From Spirochaetales bacterium (GTDB lineage: Bacteria > Spirochaetota > Spirochaetia > Treponematales > Treponemataceae): a DNA stretch of 47,194 bases. Location: assembly GCA_003246335.1 (NCBI GenBank), contig QKAR01000016.1, forward strand, positions 1-47,194, written 5' to 3'. Numbering within the stretch: position 1 is the first letter of the stretch; every line of letters starts with the position of its first letter. The translations under genes and the position numbers were made by a program. This document shows positions 21,981 to 28,232 of the stretch, piece after piece. The notes under the pieces are model-generated. The model was not told the origin of the DNA and made no database searches. It worked only from the letters and a program-made list of their open reading frames with translations.

Positions 21981-22391
21981 ATGCCCGATTCCCTGAGCGC
22001 TTCTAAACAAGATTACCTCGAAACGATACTTGATTTCACCGTTGACGCGGGCGAAGTGCGCTCAATCGACATAGCCCGCGCCCTGGGCGTCTCGCGCGCA
22101 AGCGTGAATAAATCCCTGACTGCCTTGCGCGAAACGGGGCTCATTGAGCACGAGCATTACGGAAACGTGAAACTTACCGAAAAAGGCGTTAAGGTCGCCC
22201 GACAAGTCCGCGCCCGGCACAACGCGCTGAAGGAATTCCTCCTCAACGTCCTCAAAGTCACGCCGGAAACGGCGGAAAACGACGCATGCAGGATGGAACA
22301 CGCCATTAGCCGGGAAACCGCCGCGAAATTGGAAGAATACCTGAAAACACTTGTCGCTCCCGGCGGCGCGAACGCGCCGCGCGAGGAGTGA
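21981..22391 (+). CDS. DtxR-type metal-dependent transcriptional regulator
   Basis: The 136-residue protein has a winged helix (about residues 8-70, recognition helix around S-R-A-S-V-N-K-S-L) and a dimerisation/metal-binding domain. It has no C-terminal SH3 domain. The primary metal site reads C103, E106, H107 (A-C-R-M-E-H). The Cys matches iron-responsive DtxR/IdeR; manganese-type MntR has Glu there. H80 matches an ancillary-site His, but the ancillary Glu four residues on is Lys (K84). It probably represses metal uptake genes when metal is bound, and the importer just upstream is the obvious candidate target. It converges on the hydrogenase operon with a 3-bp gap. Confidence 0.87.
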   Translation: MPDSLSASKQDYLETILDFTVDAGEVRSIDIARALGVSRASVNKSLTALRETGLIEHEHYGNVKLTEKGVKVARQVRARHNALKEFLLNVLKVTPETAENDACRMEHAISRETAAKLEEYLKTLVAPGGANAPREE

Positions 22392-22394
22392 CCC

Positions 22395-23867
22395 CTAGTC
22401 CGGCTTTTTTCCCGCCGCCGAATCCTGGCAGCTTTCAACGTATTTTTTTAGCTGCACTAAGGCGATTTTCGGGTTCGTGAGAACCGAGGGCCCCGCGATA
22501 CAACCGCCCTCGCACGCCATGACCTCGACGAGGTTCGCCTCCGCCGGTTTATTCTCCGCGTTCGCCTTGCCGAAAAGCGCGAGTTGCTTCATGCCCGCCT
22601 TATTGAGCCCGTTAATGACGAAGGGCCGCAAACGCTCCGGATTTTTCAGCCGAATGCGTACCGCCTCGGAAACGCCGCCGGATTGGGCGAAATTCCTACC
22701 GCTCGGCGAGGGGCGGGCGTCGCAAGGCTGGGTTTCGCATTGCGCGATGTCTATTTCCTTCGCGACGAAAAACGCACCGATCTCCTCCGCGGAAAGAACA
22801 TAATCCACGAAGGGGTCGTCTATTCCCTCTTTTCGTTTCGCGAGGCATGGCCCGATGAAGACCGAGAGGCAGTCGGGGTTGTCGCGTTTCGCGGCTTCCG
22901 CCGTGTAATGCATGGGAGAGCGGGTATCCGAAATACAGGAGGCCAGCTCCGGCACGTGTATCTTGACCGCGCGCACATACGCGGGACAGCAGGACGTGGT
23001 CATGAGAACGTCCCCTCGGTCCATGCGATGCTCGAATTCCTCCGCCTCGTGAGCAGAGGTAATGTCGGCGCCGGCGGCGACTTCGTACACGCCCGAGAAG
23101 CCCGCCTTGAGCAGGGCCGTCTCGAGCTGTCCGGGATGCGCGCGAAATTGCGCTGCTATCGCCGGCGCGTACATCGCGACGACTTTTTTCCCATCCATGA
23201 TATGCCGAATGACGTCCACGAGTTGCCCTTTGTCGGTCATGGCGCCAAACGGGCACTCGCGCATGCAGGAACCGCAAAACGTGCATTTCGAGTAATCGAT
23301 CCGCTCTTTCCCGTTCACGTCCTTTGAAATCGCGCCTACGGGGCATGCCTCCTCGCAGGGCACGGGGATGCGGATTATGGCGTGATAGGGGCAATTCTGC
23401 ATGCAAAGTCCGCAGTTGATGCACTTTGACGAGTCGATATGGGCGCGCCGCCCCGAAATCTCGATGCATTTTTTCGGGCAATTCATCATGCAAGGCCGGG
23501 CGACGCACGCCTGGCAACCGTTCGTCACCAGAAAGTGGGTCTTAACGCAGGCGTTGCACGCCTCGTCGATAACCGTAAGCATCGGCTCCTGCGGGCGCTC
23601 GCGCGCAAGGGCTTCCTGCGCGTACTCCGAGAGTTTCTTCTCGTCATCCCAGTCCTCGATGCTATGTCCAAGCCGCGCGACGACGCGCATGCGTAAAATT
23701 TCCCGGTCGTGATACACGCAGCAGCGGAACGGCTCGGCGTTAAGCGGCGCGATCTCGCGCGGAATGAAATGAACGCCTTCCTCAAGCTTGCCGGCGAGCT
23801 GCATTTTCGCCAAGCGAACTAAAATCTCCTTCTTTAACTGCGATGCCCCGTTGTTAATGTTCAGCAC
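22395..23867 (-). CDS. Monomeric [FeFe] hydrogenase, group B-like
   Basis: The 490-residue protein carries several N-terminal cysteine motifs for [4Fe-4S] clusters between about residues 105 and 210, including C-I-N-C-G-L-C-M-Q-N-C-P and C-T-F-C-G-S-C-M-R-E-C-P. The H-cluster domain follows. Its motifs are T-S-C-C-P-A-Y (C293, C294), I-G-P-C-L-A-K-R-K-E (C341) and M-A-C-E-G-G-C (C452, C456). All H-cluster ligands and the proton-relay Cys are present, so it should be catalytic, with ferredoxin as likely electron partner. The GPC form of motif 2 and the short motif 3 fit group B rather than group A. The GTG start overlaps the upstream ferredoxin-like gene by 14 bp with GGAG in place. HydEFG maturases are not in the window. 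Confidence 0.88.
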   Translation of the reverse strand: MLNINNGASQLKKEILVRLAKMQLAGKLEEGVHFIPREIAPLNAEPFRCCVYHDREILRMRVVARLGHSIEDWDDEKKLSEYAQEALARERPQEPMLTVIDEACNACVKTHFLVTNGCQACVARPCMMNCPKKCIEISGRRAHIDSSKCINCGLCMQNCPYHAIIRIPVPCEEACPVGAISKDVNGKERIDYSKCTFCGSCMRECPFGAMTDKGQLVDVIRHIMDGKKVVAMYAPAIAAQFRAHPGQLETALLKAGFSGVYEVAAGADITSAHEAEEFEHRMDRGDVLMTTSCCPAYVRAVKIHVPELASCISDTRSPMHYTAEAAKRDNPDCLSVFIGPCLAKRKEGIDDPFVDYVLSAEEIGAFFVAKEIDIAQCETQPCDARPSPSGRNFAQSGGVSEAVRIRLKNPERLRPFVINGLNKAGMKQLALFGKANAENKPAEANLVEVMACEGGCIAGPSVLTNPKIALVQLKKYVESCQDSAAGKKPD

Positions 23868-24114
23868 TTGCGATCTCCATAACTTTATCCATGACCACCG
23901 GAAGGGTGGCGCTTTCTATCATTTCGCCATTGACGCTCACGAACGGCGCCCGACCCTTCGTTCCCGCGTGGCACATGCCGAGGCATGGAGCCCCTTCAAG
24001 CGCGACGCGTTCCCGAACGTCCTCGGGCAAACTCTCGTTAAGCAATAAAATATCTGACGCGCCCATGACGAAACAGGCGGTTCCCGTGCACACCCGCACG
24101 CGTATTTTTTCCAT
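23854..24114 (-). CDS. Thioredoxin-fold [2Fe-2S] ferredoxin (NuoE-like), second copy
   Basis: The 86-residue protein has the [2Fe-2S] ligand pattern C-T-G-T-A-C followed about 35 residues later by C-L-G-M-C, as in the C-terminal domain of NuoE and related hydrogenase subunits. It probably carries electrons to or from the hydrogenase encoded immediately downstream, with which it overlaps. GGGGAG lies before the ATG. It is the fourth gene of the five-gene operon and a paralogue of the first. Confidence 0.85.
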   Translation of the reverse strand: MEKIRVRVCTGTACFVMGASDILLLNESLPEDVRERVALEGAPCLGMCHAGTKGRAPFVSVNGEMIESATLPVVMDKVMEIASAEH

Positions 24115-24137
24115 ATGACTCCCCTCGAAATGTTTCC

Positions 24138-25367
24138 TTAAATATAGTGGATCACGACTTCTTTGAGATAATGATCTTCCAAAATAGCCTTAATTTTTAA
24201 AACGACGTTTCGGCGTATCTCAAGCTCGACCGGCATATTCGGGTCTTGATGCGCCTCGTTGATTTTTGTCCCGACCATAAAGGTGATGCGATCGCTATCG
24301 AGGAGCATCTCGATGATCTTCGAGGCGCCGTTCTCGTGAGAGGAGCCCGGGATCCCGGAGCCCCCGGGAGCGGCGCTTCGCTCGAGGATTTCCGCCACAC
24401 GGCCGAGGGTAATGATCCCTTCCGTCACTAAGTCGGCTCCGGGCATCGTGGACATGGGAGGAACGACCGGATCAAGGTCCTTCAAATTGATTTTGACGTC
24501 GACGCCCAAGTGGCGCGCAAGAATATTGGTCGTCGTGCCGCCGCAGACGATCTTCCTTCCCCCGAATTCCGTGAAGGCGCGCGTCATTTCCGCGTCGCGT
24601 TCCGGGTTCACCGGAGGTCCGGTCAAGACGAGCAAGTCGCGGGGGTGGCGGAAGTATATCACCCCGCAGGTGATATCGTCCTTCGGCAGGTACGCGTCGT
24701 GAAATTGCGCGTTAAGGACGATTTTCCTGGCGAGCTCGCGGGCGCTAACGTCGCCGTTTTCGCTGATGCATTTCAGGACGAAGTCCTGCACGTTGCAGGC
24801 GCCCCACCCGAACGGGTACGGTCGCGAACCCATCCCCGATTGCGTCACGCCGTCGGAGAAAAAAATGAGTCGATCGCCCGGAACCGCCATATAATCCGAA
24901 TAATAGAGGATAGCCTCGCGCTTGGGGGCGGCTTTTTTGTTTTTGCGCTCTATCGGCGTACATTGCTTAATCGGCTCGACAACCGTGTTTTTCCGCACCA
25001 GTATATAATAGGGGTTATCGTATTCCATGACCCTGACGCGCGCGTTTGGCTCGATGTCGACGAGGGTAAACGTCGCGTAACTGATTCCTCGTTCCTTGCA
25101 GACGGGCAAGGTATCGAGAATGATCTTCGCGGCACGCTTGATCGGTATGTCGGACGCCACGAATTTCAGGGCCATCGTAGCCGTTAGCGTGGAAAGGACG
25201 CCCGCCTTTATGCCCGAACCGAGGCCGTCCGACAGAACGGTAATGATCCGCCCGTCGGTGTCGTGCTTTTGCGAGAGAAACGCATCGCCGGCAGCCCCTT
25301 GGTGATGCTTCTTGACCTGATAGTGACCAACTTCTACGAAAGCGCCGGTCGCGACTAAATCGCTCAT
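24138..25367 (-). CDS. SpoIIE-type PP2C protein phosphatase with an extra C-terminal domain
   Basis: The first 235 residues form a SpoIIE/RsbU-type PP2C domain: H-Q-G-A-A-G-D, T-V-L-S-D-G-L-G-S-G-I-K-A, I-F-F-S-D-G-V-T-Q and the late K-D-D-I-T-C-G-V-I. These supply the metal-binding Asp residues. Such enzymes usually dephosphorylate STAS-domain anti-anti-sigma factors. The remaining 170 or so residues are an unrecognised domain with R-K-I-V-C-G-G-T-T-T-N-I-L-A-R-H near residue 265 and a conserved-looking end. The ATG overlaps the stop of the HydS-like gene (ATGA), so the phosphatase is translationally coupled to the sensor. Its own sensory input is not obvious, which makes the hydrogenase-like sensor the probable input. 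Confidence 0.85.
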   Translation of the reverse strand: MSDLVATGAFVEVGHYQVKKHHQGAAGDAFLSQKHDTDGRIITVLSDGLGSGIKAGVLSTLTATMALKFVASDIPIKRAAKIILDTLPVCKERGISYATFTLVDIEPNARVRVMEYDNPYYILVRKNTVVEPIKQCTPIERKNKKAAPKREAILYYSDYMAVPGDRLIFFSDGVTQSGMGSRPYPFGWGACNVQDFVLKCISENGDVSARELARKIVLNAQFHDAYLPKDDITCGVIYFRHPRDLLVLTGPPVNPERDAEMTRAFTEFGGRKIVCGGTTTNILARHLGVDVKINLKDLDPVVPPMSTMPGADLVTEGIITLGRVAEILERSAAPGGSGIPGSSHENGASKIIEMLLDSDRITFMVGTKINEAHQDPNMPVELEIRRNVVLKIKAILEDHYLKEVVIHYI

Positions 25368-27097
25368 TCGCCGGCATCCTCCAGGTCAGTGAAAGACTCA
25401 ATGATGGAATTAAGCGAAGCCTCGGTCTCGGCCGCGTTTTCCCCGAGCAAAAACGCGATTTTCTGCACCACCGCGAGGTTTTTGTCTATAACGCGCTTCG
25501 CTTGCTTTATCACCCGATCCCGTTGGATTTGCGGCGCGGTAACGTCCTGGATGACGCCGCAGGCGCTTTCACCTTTTTCTATGGAAAAAACCGTCGCGTG
25601 GAAAATTTTTTTGCCTTCGCGCAGCTCGTGCTCAACGGCGTCGGGCCCGTCGCCCGACATGACGTCGCGGAAAAATCGCGAAAGGCCCGTGATTTTCTCC
25701 AGATCCGCGCCTTCCATACCCGGTTTCGCCTCGAACATCGAATAAATTTCCCCGCCCATGAGCCGGGCGAAATTCTCGTTGCACTCGATGATTTTCAGCG
25801 AGGAATCGCAGATAACCACACCCGAAGGAATGGCGCGAATAAGGCCATTCGCCTTTTTTTGGGCGAGTTTGCGCATGTACGAAACGCACATCGTGCGCTC
25901 GGCGTGGTGATCGAGCATCGCCGCGGCGAAACTTCTGCAGGTATCGTACCCGCAACTCCCGCAATTGAGCTCATCTTGCAACTCGAGTTTTCCGACTTGG
26001 CGCAGCGCGGCGCGAATTTCCTCGTCAGTATGGCTGATGGGCGTCGGTAACGCGACCGGAAGCGTATCGCCCATTTCGGGCCGCGCGGCGTCGAGCGTCT
26101 CGCGCGCGCTTTCCGCGTAATCGAGAAGATCGATTCGTTTTATGGCGGTTGGGGCATGATGTGACGTTTGCGGGCCGTTCACGCAGCCCCCCGGACACGC
26201 GAGAAGCTCCATGAATAAGGGGGAAGTCAGCTTATCGGGCTCGAGGCCGCGGATAGCGAGCTCGATTTCGTCCAGACCCGTCACGGACATCATGTGTACT
26301 CCGTCAGAGCCGGGATACTTCTTGATAGCCGCGATCATCCCCCCGTCGATGGGGTACAGAGAACCTTTAGCCGCCCGTTCGGGGATAAACTCGCCAGAGC
26401 CGTTTCCCGCGTCCATGCGAGCCGGATCGATCCCGGCTTGCTCGAACCAATGCTTTAAGTCACGGAAAGTAATCGCGCAGTCAACCGTTTTCCATACGTC
26501 GGCTTCGCGTTTTTTTGCGATGCAGGGACCGATGAAGACGATGCCCACGTCGGGGCCCAGCTCGCGCCGTAAATACCGGGCATGTGCCAAAAGAGGCGAC
26601 GCCCGATCGGTAATATAGGGTGCGTATTCCCGCATATACCGCTTAATAAACTCTACCGCCACGGGACACGCCGAGGAAAGGAAGAGTTTTTGGCGGGAGG
26701 AGGGATCGCGGCTCCCAAAATCCTCGGCGAGCATGGAGGAAACGAGGTCTGCGCCGATAGCCGTCTCCGAGACCCCGTAAAAGCCCAGTTTTTTTAGCGC
26801 CGCGACGAGTTGCCCGGGATTAATTCCGGAAAACTCCGAGGCGAAAGAGGGTGCAAGCGAAACGACCACGCGATCCTTAAGCGATAAAAGCTGACGGGCG
26901 CGGGCTTTATCGTCCCGAACGCGCTTCGCGCCGGCCGGACAGATCGTCACGCAGTGGCCGCAGAGTACGCAAAGCTCGGAAACGACCATGGCATGCCCGT
27001 TCTCGACGCGAATGGCCTTTACCGGGCACTCGCGAATGCACTTGTAACAATCTTGACACTGCGTCTTTTCAGTATATATGGGGCTCTGGAAATTCAT
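25364..27097 (-). CDS. HydS-like sensory [FeFe] hydrogenase with PAS domain (group C)
   Basis: The 577-residue protein has a 2x[4Fe-4S] ferredoxin domain (C14, C17, C20, C24 and C43, C46, C49, C53), then an H-cluster domain. Its motifs are S-S-A-C-P (A143, C144), I-G-P-C-I-A-K-K-R-E (C192) and A-C-P-G-G-C (C301, C305). A further Fe-S module follows (C-G-S-C-G-Y-D-T-C near residue 395), then a PAS domain (about 440-540) and a short helical tail. The proton-relay Cys before the ligand Cys is Ala, as in the putative sensory hydrogenase HydS of Thermotoga maritima. This predicts low turnover and a role as H2 or redox sensor. There is no kinase, cyclase or other output domain. The start at 27097 overlaps the upstream gene in an ATGA and has AAGGA upstream. 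Confidence 0.88.
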   Translation of the reverse strand: MNFQSPIYTEKTQCQDCYKCIRECPVKAIRVENGHAMVVSELCVLCGHCVTICPAGAKRVRDDKARARQLLSLKDRVVVSLAPSFASEFSGINPGQLVAALKKLGFYGVSETAIGADLVSSMLAEDFGSRDPSSRQKLFLSSACPVAVEFIKRYMREYAPYITDRASPLLAHARYLRRELGPDVGIVFIGPCIAKKREADVWKTVDCAITFRDLKHWFEQAGIDPARMDAGNGSGEFIPERAAKGSLYPIDGGMIAAIKKYPGSDGVHMMSVTGLDEIELAIRGLEPDKLTSPLFMELLACPGGCVNGPQTSHHAPTAIKRIDLLDYAESARETLDAARPEMGDTLPVALPTPISHTDEEIRAALRQVGKLELQDELNCGSCGYDTCRSFAAAMLDHHAERTMCVSYMRKLAQKKANGLIRAIPSGVVICDSSLKIIECNENFARLMGGEIYSMFEAKPGMEGADLEKITGLSRFFRDVMSGDGPDAVEHELREGKKIFHATVFSIEKGESACGVIQDVTAPQIQRDRVIKQAKRVIDKNLAVVQKIAFLLGENAAETEASLNSIIESFTDLEDAGE

Positions 27098-27354
27098 TGG
27101 CTTTCCTTGCATAATTTATGCAGAAGGAGATCATCGAGCATTTCAGGCTCTACGCCCTGAAATAATTCGTCGTTAATTCGGATGTTTGGCCCGTCTTTGC
27201 AATGGCCTTCGCAAAGGCACCCCCGCACCTCGACGTGGGCGGACAGATTGTGTTCGGAGAGGAAAGACTCAATACTTTCGGCATTGATGTTGTTCCCGCG
27301 GGAAAAGCAGGAGCTTCCCATGCAAATCGTTATACAGGTCTCGGGTGTTTCCAT
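27094..27354 (-). CDS. Thioredoxin-fold [2Fe-2S] ferredoxin (NuoE-like), first copy
   Basis: The 86-residue protein has C-M-G-S-S-C near residue 11 and G-C-L-C-E-G-H-C about 35 residues later, the [2Fe-2S] pattern of NuoE C-terminal domains. It is the first gene of the hydrogenase operon and overlaps the HydS-like gene by 4 bp, so it probably passes electrons to that sensor. The ATG at 27354 is preferred over 27387 because AAGAGG lies 8-13 nt upstream and the predicted promoter ends between the two. Confidence 0.85.
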   Translation of the reverse strand: METPETCITICMGSSCFSRGNNINAESIESFLSEHNLSAHVEVRGCLCEGHCKDGPNIRINDELFQGVEPEMLDDLLLHKLCKESQ

Positions 27355-27374: not shown

Positions 27375-27403
27375 ATGGTATAAACAAATATTGAATTAGT
27401 CAA
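27375..27403 (-). promoter_or_regulatory. Promoter of the hydrogenase operon
   Basis: On the minus strand TTGACT (27398-27403) and TACCAT (27375-27380) are 17 bp apart. The transcript would begin near 27368 and the first ATG is at 27354. Confidence 0.6.
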
Positions 27404-27422: not shown

Positions 27423-28232
27423 ATGAATTACGAGCGCCCTAAGAATGACGAACGAGCGATCATCATAGAGAATCTCGCGGATTTTTACGACGCCATCCAA
27501 GAATATTATGACGAACTCTTTCCCATAAGCGAGAAAGCGCTGCCTTTTTTTCTCGGCCTTAAGCGAGACCTGGCCGAGCGGTCGCCGGTTCAGCCCGCGC
27601 CGATGGTTAGGTATCTGGGGCTCGGCTGCGCAGCGGGGAATTTGGAGAACAAGCTGCAATGCGAAGGATTTGACGTAACCGGGGTGGACGCCAATCCCCG
27701 AATGATCGAAACAGCTAAAAGGCGGATGAAACGCGGCTCCATGAACCTTCGGTTTTTCGAAATGCCCATAATCGACATTGGGCGATTCCTGAAACAAGGC
27801 TCGTTTAACGTCATCGCCTGCCTCGACGACGTCCTTCCATACATCTCGAGCGAGACCCTTTTGCGAAAATTTTTTCATGACGCGAAGGGCCTTCTCGCGC
27901 CCAACGGAGCGCTCGTCGTCGAAACGATTAATTACGACGCCATGAGCGCAAGCGAACCCACGAAAATCTCGCCTCGAGAATCCATCAGGGTCAAGCTCGA
28001 CCGCGCGTATTTTCCCGCCGGGGACGGCGCTCTTTTGCTCGAAGCCGCCTTGGAACAGGGCAACGGAACGACGATCCACGTCAACAAATCCGTGCGCGTG
28101 TTCCCGCTCACGAAACGAGCCGCGGAAACGTACGCGCGCGAAGCCGGTTTCTCGGAAATCTCCGTATTCGGCGACTTTGACGGCCGCGAATGGACTGCCG
28201 GAGGAGAAAAAACCGTTATCGTTCTAAAATAA
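27423..28232 (+). CDS. Class I SAM-dependent methyltransferase, substrate unknown
   Basis: The 269-residue protein has a Rossmann-type SAM site: Y-L-G-L-G-C-A-A-G-N-L-E near residue 64 (motif I) and G-V-D-A-N-P-R-M-I near residue 89 (acidic end of strand 2). A-C-L-D-D-V-L-P-Y near residue 138 fits motif IV of small-molecule methyltransferases. The substrate cannot be named. It diverges from the hydrogenase operon, with a good AGGAG ribosome binding site, and is transcribed alone; its stop lies 18 bp from the convergent ricT stop. Whether it is functionally linked to the hydrogenases is unknown. Confidence 0.78.
   Translation: MNYERPKNDERAIIIENLADFYDAIQEYYDELFPISEKALPFFLGLKRDLAERSPVQPAPMVRYLGLGCAAGNLENKLQCEGFDVTGVDANPRMIETAKRRMKRGSMNLRFFEMPIIDIGRFLKQGSFNVIACLDDVLPYISSETLLRKFFHDAKGLLAPNGALVVETINYDAMSASEPTKISPRESIRVKLDRAYFPAGDGALLLEAALEQGNGTTIHVNKSVRVFPLTKRAAETYAREAGFSEISVFGDFDGREWTAGGEKTVIVLK

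Follow-up and report, generated by a model that had tools for sequence, protein, structure and literature searches.

The window analysed here comprises 47,194 nucleotides of contig QKAR01000016.1 (assembly GCA_003246335.1) from a Spirochaetales bacterium. Between positions 22395 and 27354 it carries an operon of five genes, all on the minus strand and arranged head to tail. The genes were assigned from the open reading frames (ORFs) and from Pfam and NCBIfam domains. In order, they encode a [2Fe-2S] ferredoxin, a HydS-like sensory [FeFe]-hydrogenase (hereafter HydS), a SpoIIE-type phosphatase, a second [2Fe-2S] ferredoxin and a group B [FeFe]-hydrogenase. We label the phosphatase HfsC, a name borrowed from Thermoanaerobacterium hfsC. 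The genes are as follows, with lengths in amino acids (aa).

27094..27354, minus strand: upstream thioredoxin-like [2Fe-2S] ferredoxin, 86 aa, ATG at 27354; PF01257, E 2.7e-7
25364..27112, minus strand: HydS-like sensory [FeFe]-hydrogenase, 582 aa from 27112 or 577 aa from 27097
24138..25367, minus strand: HfsC-type SpoIIE/PPM phosphatase, 409 aa; ATGA overlap with HydS
23854..24114, minus strand: second thioredoxin-like [2Fe-2S] ferredoxin, 86 aa; PF01257, E 1.3e-7
22395..23867, minus strand: group B [FeFe]-hydrogenase, 490 aa, GTG start, catalytic type, TSCCP motif

This layout confirms the five genes that the first-pass annotation had placed here, including its two ferredoxin-like genes and the ATGA overlap between the HydS stop and the phosphatase start. 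Both small proteins are thioredoxin-like [2Fe-2S] ferredoxins and not 4Fe-4S ferredoxins. The last gene had been called a catalytic-type group B hydrogenase; it matched TIGR04105 at 533.2 bits (cut-off 450), and the TSCCP motif was read directly from its translation.

HydS is composed of the following parts.

26939..27058, minus strand: two [4Fe-4S] motifs, Cys19 to Cys58
26171..26872, minus strand: hydrogenase domain (H-domain), PF02906, with Ala148 (Ala143 from the second start)
25883..25969, minus strand: C-terminal four-Cys FeS motif (Cys384, 387, 392 and 409), PF04060
25538..25843, minus strand: PAS domain, about residues 424-525
25391..25537, minus strand: C-terminal tail, residues 526-574, candidate HfsC-facing element

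The H-domain scored 158.5 bits. The PAS domain gave a weak PAS_8 match (21.2 bits, cut-off 21.8), and a HydS family profile run against solved structures matched PAS structures (best E 4.9e-5). Pfam and NCBIfam showed neither a kinase nor a cyclase domain in HydS, in agreement with the earlier claim of a PAS protein without such an output. Conservation was read from an alignment of 120 rows, the window plus 119 pairs from the survey described below; 119 rows are unique. The H-cluster ligands Cys149, Cys197, Cys306 and Cys310 were each kept in 112-114 unique rows, the remainder being mostly gaps, and the four-Cys FeS motif was kept in 115. Three tail residues, Q550 (118 rows), G557 (119) and E558 (118), were as constant as the Fe-S cysteines. 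The proton-relay position 148 was variable, with Ala in 75 rows, Asn in 22, Cys in 8 and other states in 14, of which 6 were gaps. The first-pass annotation had read the relay Cys as Ala143, a change associated with HydS. That number applies only if translation starts at the sixth codon, 27097, where a second start overlaps the stop of the upstream ferredoxin as ATGA; from the first ATG, at 27112, the residue is Ala148. Ala is indeed common across HydS, but it is not a defining mark, and the HydS of Ruminococcus albus 7 has Cys at this position. One surveyed HydS (L124:6335-8001) reads as two overlapping frames of 262 and 293 aa, perhaps through a frameshift or an assembly fault. Apparent internal stops in Bacteroidales HydS were rejected; they look like normal ends of genes, and these genes read as 618-aa frames.

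HfsC has two parts.

24654..25346, minus strand: PPM catalytic domain, residues 8-238
24141..24653, minus strand: C-terminal Rossmann-like domain, residues 239-409, family not found

The match to SpoIIE (PF07228, 50.2 bits) covers residues 38-237 only. HfsC shares the PPM fold and catalytic residues of SpoIIE and RsbP, including the metal-binding Asp residues, and differs from both by the extra Rossmann-like domain. That domain matched no Pfam family above the cut-off and had no significant sequence relative in the PDB (best E 0.52). A fold search, which weighed the Rossmann domain of molybdopterin oxidoreductase/NuoG as a candidate match, placed it in the Rossmann-like class only. RsbP carries a PAS domain in its own chain. 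Pfam found no sensor domain in HfsC, and the RsbP-type arrangement, in which the phosphatase chain itself includes sensor and helix, is not seen here; PAS and tail sit on HydS. SpoIIE is set by a regulatory helix that contacts its switch helices, and the same has been proposed for RsbP (PMC5468089; for this and the other articles cited, statements refer to the portions of the text available). In its AlphaFold2 model (mean predicted local distance difference test score 89.9), HfsC opens directly at the PPM core, and the first confident helix spans residues 52-71. As modelled, the HfsC chain is without a regulatory helix of its own.

HydDB divides the putative sensory [FeFe]-hydrogenases of group C into C1 (histidine kinase-linked), C2 (chemotactic) and C3 (phosphatase-linked), each of them putative; in C3, a hydrogenase that putatively senses H2 is tied to a Ser/Thr phosphatase (PMC5037454), and an H-domain with PAS is described for this class (PMC6776011). 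The window has an H-domain with the four H-cluster cysteines, a fused PAS domain and an adjoining Ser/Thr phosphatase gene, and nothing was seen in it outside the class. Judged by its predicted anatomy, the HydS/HfsC pair is a new example of the already named group C3, for which a hypothesis is in print: in R. albus, the subunit with H-cluster and PAS is accompanied by a putative Ser/Thr phosphatase, and the latter may modify downstream regulators (PMC6776011). In Thermoanaerobacterium, hfsB has been suspected to encode a sensor since 2009, according to PMC5707799. The first-pass annotation had noted that no worked-out mechanism was known, which agrees with the portions of the literature found here.

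The R. albus 7 locus on plasmid pRUMAL01 was found through a search of a plasmid collection (three records). It encodes Rex, adhE, an APH-type phosphotransferase, two ferredoxins, HydS, the SpoIIE phosphatase and a hydrogenase. It shares with the window the order ferredoxin-HydS-HfsC-hydrogenase, the overlap of the HydS and HfsC genes, the C-terminal domain of HfsC and the tail motif of HydS, with Q550, G557 and E558 all kept. HydS and HfsC are each 33% identical to their window counterparts, and the hydrogenase, which holds the same place, is 38% identical to the window group B hydrogenase over 416 alignment columns. The locus differs by the Rex, adhE and phosphotransferase genes upstream, and by having both ferredoxins upstream and none between HfsC and the hydrogenase, where the window has one. 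An eight-gene R. albus cluster with a ferredoxin-only hydrogenase, an alcohol/aldehyde dehydrogenase and a sensory hydrogenase falls 111-fold in co-culture (PMC6776011), and this is apparently the HydS/HfsC locus. Two further relatives can be likened by their published descriptions. Thermoanaerobacterium hfsABCD shares a PAS-bearing hydrogenase (HfsB), a serine phosphatase (HfsC) and a ferredoxin-linked hydrogenase (HfsD), and has four genes as against five in the window. TamHydS, as in the window, has lost the proton-relay Cys and carries a C-terminal FeS motif, and is set apart by its lack of PAS. The closest named relatives of the window HfsC, among the matches listed, belong at 66-68% identity to Spirochaetaceae/Treponema metagenome genomes from rumen and gut, so that the most probable source of the window is an uncultured treponeme-like spirochete.

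The co-occurrence of HydS and HfsC was examined in a sample of the phylum, 296 genomes drawn evenly from a larger group. Of these genomes, 41 carry HfsC at full length, in 42 copies with E values of 1.3e-33 or better, and eight additional places matched its phosphatase domain only. A profile of PAS plus tail (HydS residues 413-582) matched 42 proteins strongly, with E values of 5.7e-40 or better, and all of them come from the same 41 genomes. The remaining matches (8.8e-10 or weaker) ended by model position 141; the G557/E558 motif, at model positions 145-146, was reached only in the 42 proteins adjoining HfsC. Immediately upstream of each of the 42 HfsC copies, and on its strand, was exactly one PAS+tail protein; each of the 42 strong PAS+tail proteins in turn lay directly upstream of HfsC, with none left over. 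This reciprocal pairing is what a direct partnership predicts. No natural HydS-HfsC fusion was found among the 42 copies, whose open frames span 388-488 aa.

A wider neighbourhood survey covered 123 HfsC copies in 80 named loci (the best 80 of at least 573) and 40 phylum loci; 40 of the 42 phylum copies were included, the window's own and that of G270 being left out, and one contig is counted twice among the 120 loci (L057 and L102). For 120 of the 123 copies, HydS, or its short PAS+tail form in three cases, preceded HfsC on the same strand at a distance of at most 300 bp. A script found 119 of these pairs, and L128 was added from match coordinates, an open frame at a contig end having hidden its start. 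The spacing was at most 30 bp in 113 of the 119. The association exceeds what chance would give. A [2Fe-2S] ferredoxin stood just upstream in 99 of the 119 pairs (contig ends not excluded). A group B hydrogenase followed downstream in 51 of them, as might be expected if HydS were a slowly catalytic or electron-transferring partner subunit of that hydrogenase and the ferredoxins, its link to the phosphatase being secondary; that HfsABC make up a hydrogenase is a possibility voiced in PMC13277313. We consider such a role quite improbable. The other 68 pairs show no downstream group B hydrogenase (contig ends not excluded), the adjacency of HydS and HfsC is nearly constant, and deletion of hfsB in Thermoanaerobacterium saccharolyticum raised hydrogenase activity (PMC5707799).

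Three of the 42 phylum pairs (G003, G039 and G061, from three genomes of one family) lack the H-domain, and their upstream partner is a PAS+tail protein of 173-186 aa. The lack was established by Pfam on one of the three short proteins, and no PF02906 place lies there in any of the three genomes. Their loci (L088, L087 and L086, respectively) share the order CooS, CooF, ferredoxin, PAS/tail protein, HfsC, NuoE, NuoF and a NuoG-N-like protein; Pfam supports CooS, CooF and the PAS protein in G003, and the other names were given by eye. CooS-like genes were not seen in the other 117 survey loci, each at most ~17 kb. G003 and G039 have hydrogenases elsewhere in the genome, and none was found in G061, which is 71% complete. 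In G003, a separate locus (L199:7250-9331) encodes a C1-like protein of 693 aa in which an H-domain is joined to HisKA and HATPase; it adjoins group A-like hydrogenase and NuoF-like genes (by eye). What the versions with and without the H-domain have in common is PAS, tail and HfsC, usually after a [2Fe-2S] ferredoxin. Since three of the 42 pairs do without the hydrogenase domain, the core looks like the pair of PAS+tail and HfsC, with the hydrogenase part optional. The three CooS-linked loci fall outside group C3. Neither this hydrogenase-free version nor the HydS tail was reported in the searched portions of the articles cited here, a selection that excludes most subscription journals. The reciprocal pairing of PAS/tail with HfsC, the hydrogenase-free CO-dehydrogenase version and a concrete candidate interface are the new points of this work.

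These loci raise the alternative that the input is the redox state of ferredoxin or other Fe-S carriers and not H2 as such. The core would then be ferredoxin, PAS+tail and HfsC, and the H-domain would be one of several possible electron entries. The frequent upstream ferredoxin is consistent with this, as is the finding that deletion of hfsA, the first operon gene, has the phenotype of an hfsB deletion, although hfsA deletion also lowered expression of hfsB-D (PMC5707799). On the other side, 39 of the 42 phylum copies retain the H-domain, as judged by frame length, and the H-cluster ligands are retained as described above; therefore, most are under selection for H2 or CO binding. A purely redox input is possible, but we regard it as rather unlikely.

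Taken as a whole, the operon probably encodes a group C3, phosphatase-linked sensory [FeFe]-hydrogenase in which HydS signals gas or redox state to HfsC in trans and thereby tunes fermentation genes. The H-cluster and Fe-S relay of HydS would read H2 or redox state, and the state read would alter the PAS domain. The tail would then contact the switch helices of HfsC (alpha1/alpha2) in trans and turn the phosphatase up or down, acting like the built-in regulatory helix of SpoIIE and, by proposal, of RsbP. In response, fermentation and hydrogenase genes would be adjusted, as the genetics of Thermoanaerobacterium and the expression data of R. albus suggest. We infer the contact, its direction and the signal from the observed adjacency, co-occurrence and conservation, together with the model-based lack of a helix in HfsC. 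In T. saccharolyticum, deletion of hfsA or hfsB increased adhE transcripts and ethanol, and deletion of hfsC or hfsD did not (PMC5707799). These results fit in part, as if HfsB restrains something that needs HfsC and HfsD.

Covariation between the two proteins was scored by mutual information with average product correction (MI-APC), in runs of 119 of the 120 rows first and then of 114, 110 and 50 rows. In the main set (110 rows), tail columns were enriched 2.0-2.8-fold among the top HydS-HfsC pairs. Sixteen clade-preserving shuffles gave at most 2.5-fold in the top 30, 2.1 in the top 60 and 1.8 in the top 100 and 200, all below the data, and a HydS-hydrogenase control gave 1.4-1.65-fold (50 rows).

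However, 60 clade-preserving shuffles with fixed weights nearly reproduced the HydS-HfsC tail covariation: 40 tail pairs were in the top 200 as against null means of 38.3 and 41.7, and the mean z from tail to switch helices was 0.179 as against null maxima of 0.184 and 0.173. The excess of tail covariation depends on sequence weighting and is not robust, and it is taken as evidence neither for nor against contact.

Two observations weigh against a direct, tail-mediated signal to HfsC. HfsC stands without an adjoining HydS at L120, L163 and L168, with a PAS+tail protein elsewhere in the genome, and the same separation occurs at L202. The presence of both proteins in these genomes still fits a partnership, but the two genes are separable beyond the phylum sample. 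At L202 (Acetoanaerobium noterae, L202:6983-8164), HfsC lies downstream of coenzyme A-transferase-like genes (by eye), and the PAS+tail partner is elsewhere on the record. Further, in Thermoanaerobacterium thermosaccharolyticum, an hfsABCD deletion to which hfsD alone was returned gave high ethanol (PMC11837493), so HfsC is not needed for that phenotype.

A broader proposal, which we find plausible and hold tentatively, is that of a split sensor phosphatase, in which PAS+tail would supply in trans the helix that HfsC is missing. Redox and gas front ends would vary, and the C3 sensors would belong, as a single branch, to a larger family of redox-switched PPM phosphatases that carry a Rossmann-like domain. 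If so, the front end would be the H-cluster domain in most cases and the CooS-CooF/NuoEF operon in one family.

The first-pass annotation had HydS read H2 or redox state and pass it to the phosphatase, which would act on a STAS or other phosphoprotein. The signalling part is well supported by comparative anatomy and coincides with the published hypothesis. A STAS target for HfsC is not supported by the gene content of these genomes. RsbU dephosphorylates an anti-anti-sigma factor of the STAS type, against which an RsbW-like kinase works. An equivalent role for HfsC would have precedent in SpoIIE and RsbP (PMC5468089), and PF01740 proteins occur in 34 of the 41 HfsC genomes. The other seven have no PF01740 match at E 0.001, and ORFs and Pfam show no STAS or RsbW-like gene in the window operon. 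Among the matches listed, none lies within 10 kb of HfsC, the nearest being at ~13.5 kb (G194) and ~13.9 kb (G263); STAS_2 (PF13466) was not searched. In the window genome, STAS and HATPase_c_2 matches adjoin other SpoIIE phosphatases (C88 and C58). We therefore regard this target and its RsbW-like kinase as highly unlikely.

The opposing kinase might instead be encoded with hydrogenase genes, either as the HATPase protein of a bifurcating-hydrogenase operon or as an APH-type phosphotransferase as in R. albus. HATPase homologues occur in 21 of the 41 HfsC genomes as against 32 of the 255 without HfsC. The G293 HATPase gene shares the strand of HfsC and follows it at a distance of ~1.9 kb, immediately past the group B hydrogenase. 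In R. albus, an APH/RIO-like gene belongs to the HydS cluster. However, HATPase is absent from 20 of the 41 HfsC genomes, its excess may merely reflect the presence of hydrogenases, and Pfam shows no APH-like gene among the five window operon genes. Either kinase seems to us improbable. The window genome encodes a stand-alone 211-aa HATPase_c protein (L098:4388-5023, C17) in a putative bifurcating-hydrogenase operon with NuoE- and NuoF-like genes (by eye). On pRUMAL01, the APH/RIO-type phosphotransferase (L200:4974-5723) lies between the adhE and ferredoxin genes and is a candidate kinase opposing HfsC.

The operon is flanked by the following features.

27375..27403, minus strand: possible sigma-70-like promoter of the operon, TTGACT-17-TACCAT, weak
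27423-28232: methyltransferase gene, divergent from the operon
21981-22391: iron-dependent-repressor-like gene, convergent with the operon

The promoter is a weak candidate, as the region has 2 sigma-70-like matches where 2.5 are expected. The repressor-like gene and the hydrogenase gene end 3 bases apart, and upstream of the former is an ABC-transporter cluster (by eye). The window genome has seven PF02906 places: the pair in the window operon, two that adjoin NuoF-like genes (C17 and C47; NuoF by eye), a 412-aa protein (C78), a partial one at a contig end and a protein fused to a methyl-accepting chemotaxis protein (MCP) domain (C111). The C47 hydrogenase (L099:1969-3957) has a C-terminal stretch resembling the [2Fe-2S] ferredoxins of the window operon (by eye). 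The C111 protein (L006:181-2433, minus strand) has 750 aa with 4Fe-4S motifs, an H-domain, an FeS motif and an MCP signalling domain, and it adjoins a CheW-like gene (by eye), as a putative H2 chemoreceptor of the C2 type would.

Groups C and D were still called putative sensors in 2026, and a role of the C-terminal cluster in sensing or in signalling had been put forward without a test, according to the introduction of that article (PMC13104023). The pairing of tail and HfsC reduces the question of signal transfer to two pieces, PAS+tail and HfsC. Three near-invariant tail residues, and a natural hydrogenase-free version as a control, make this pairing tractable. Group C enzymes are reported to be abundant in the rumen (PMC6776011), and the proposed route would bear on whether fermenters make ethanol or acetate/H2, as well as on rumen H2.

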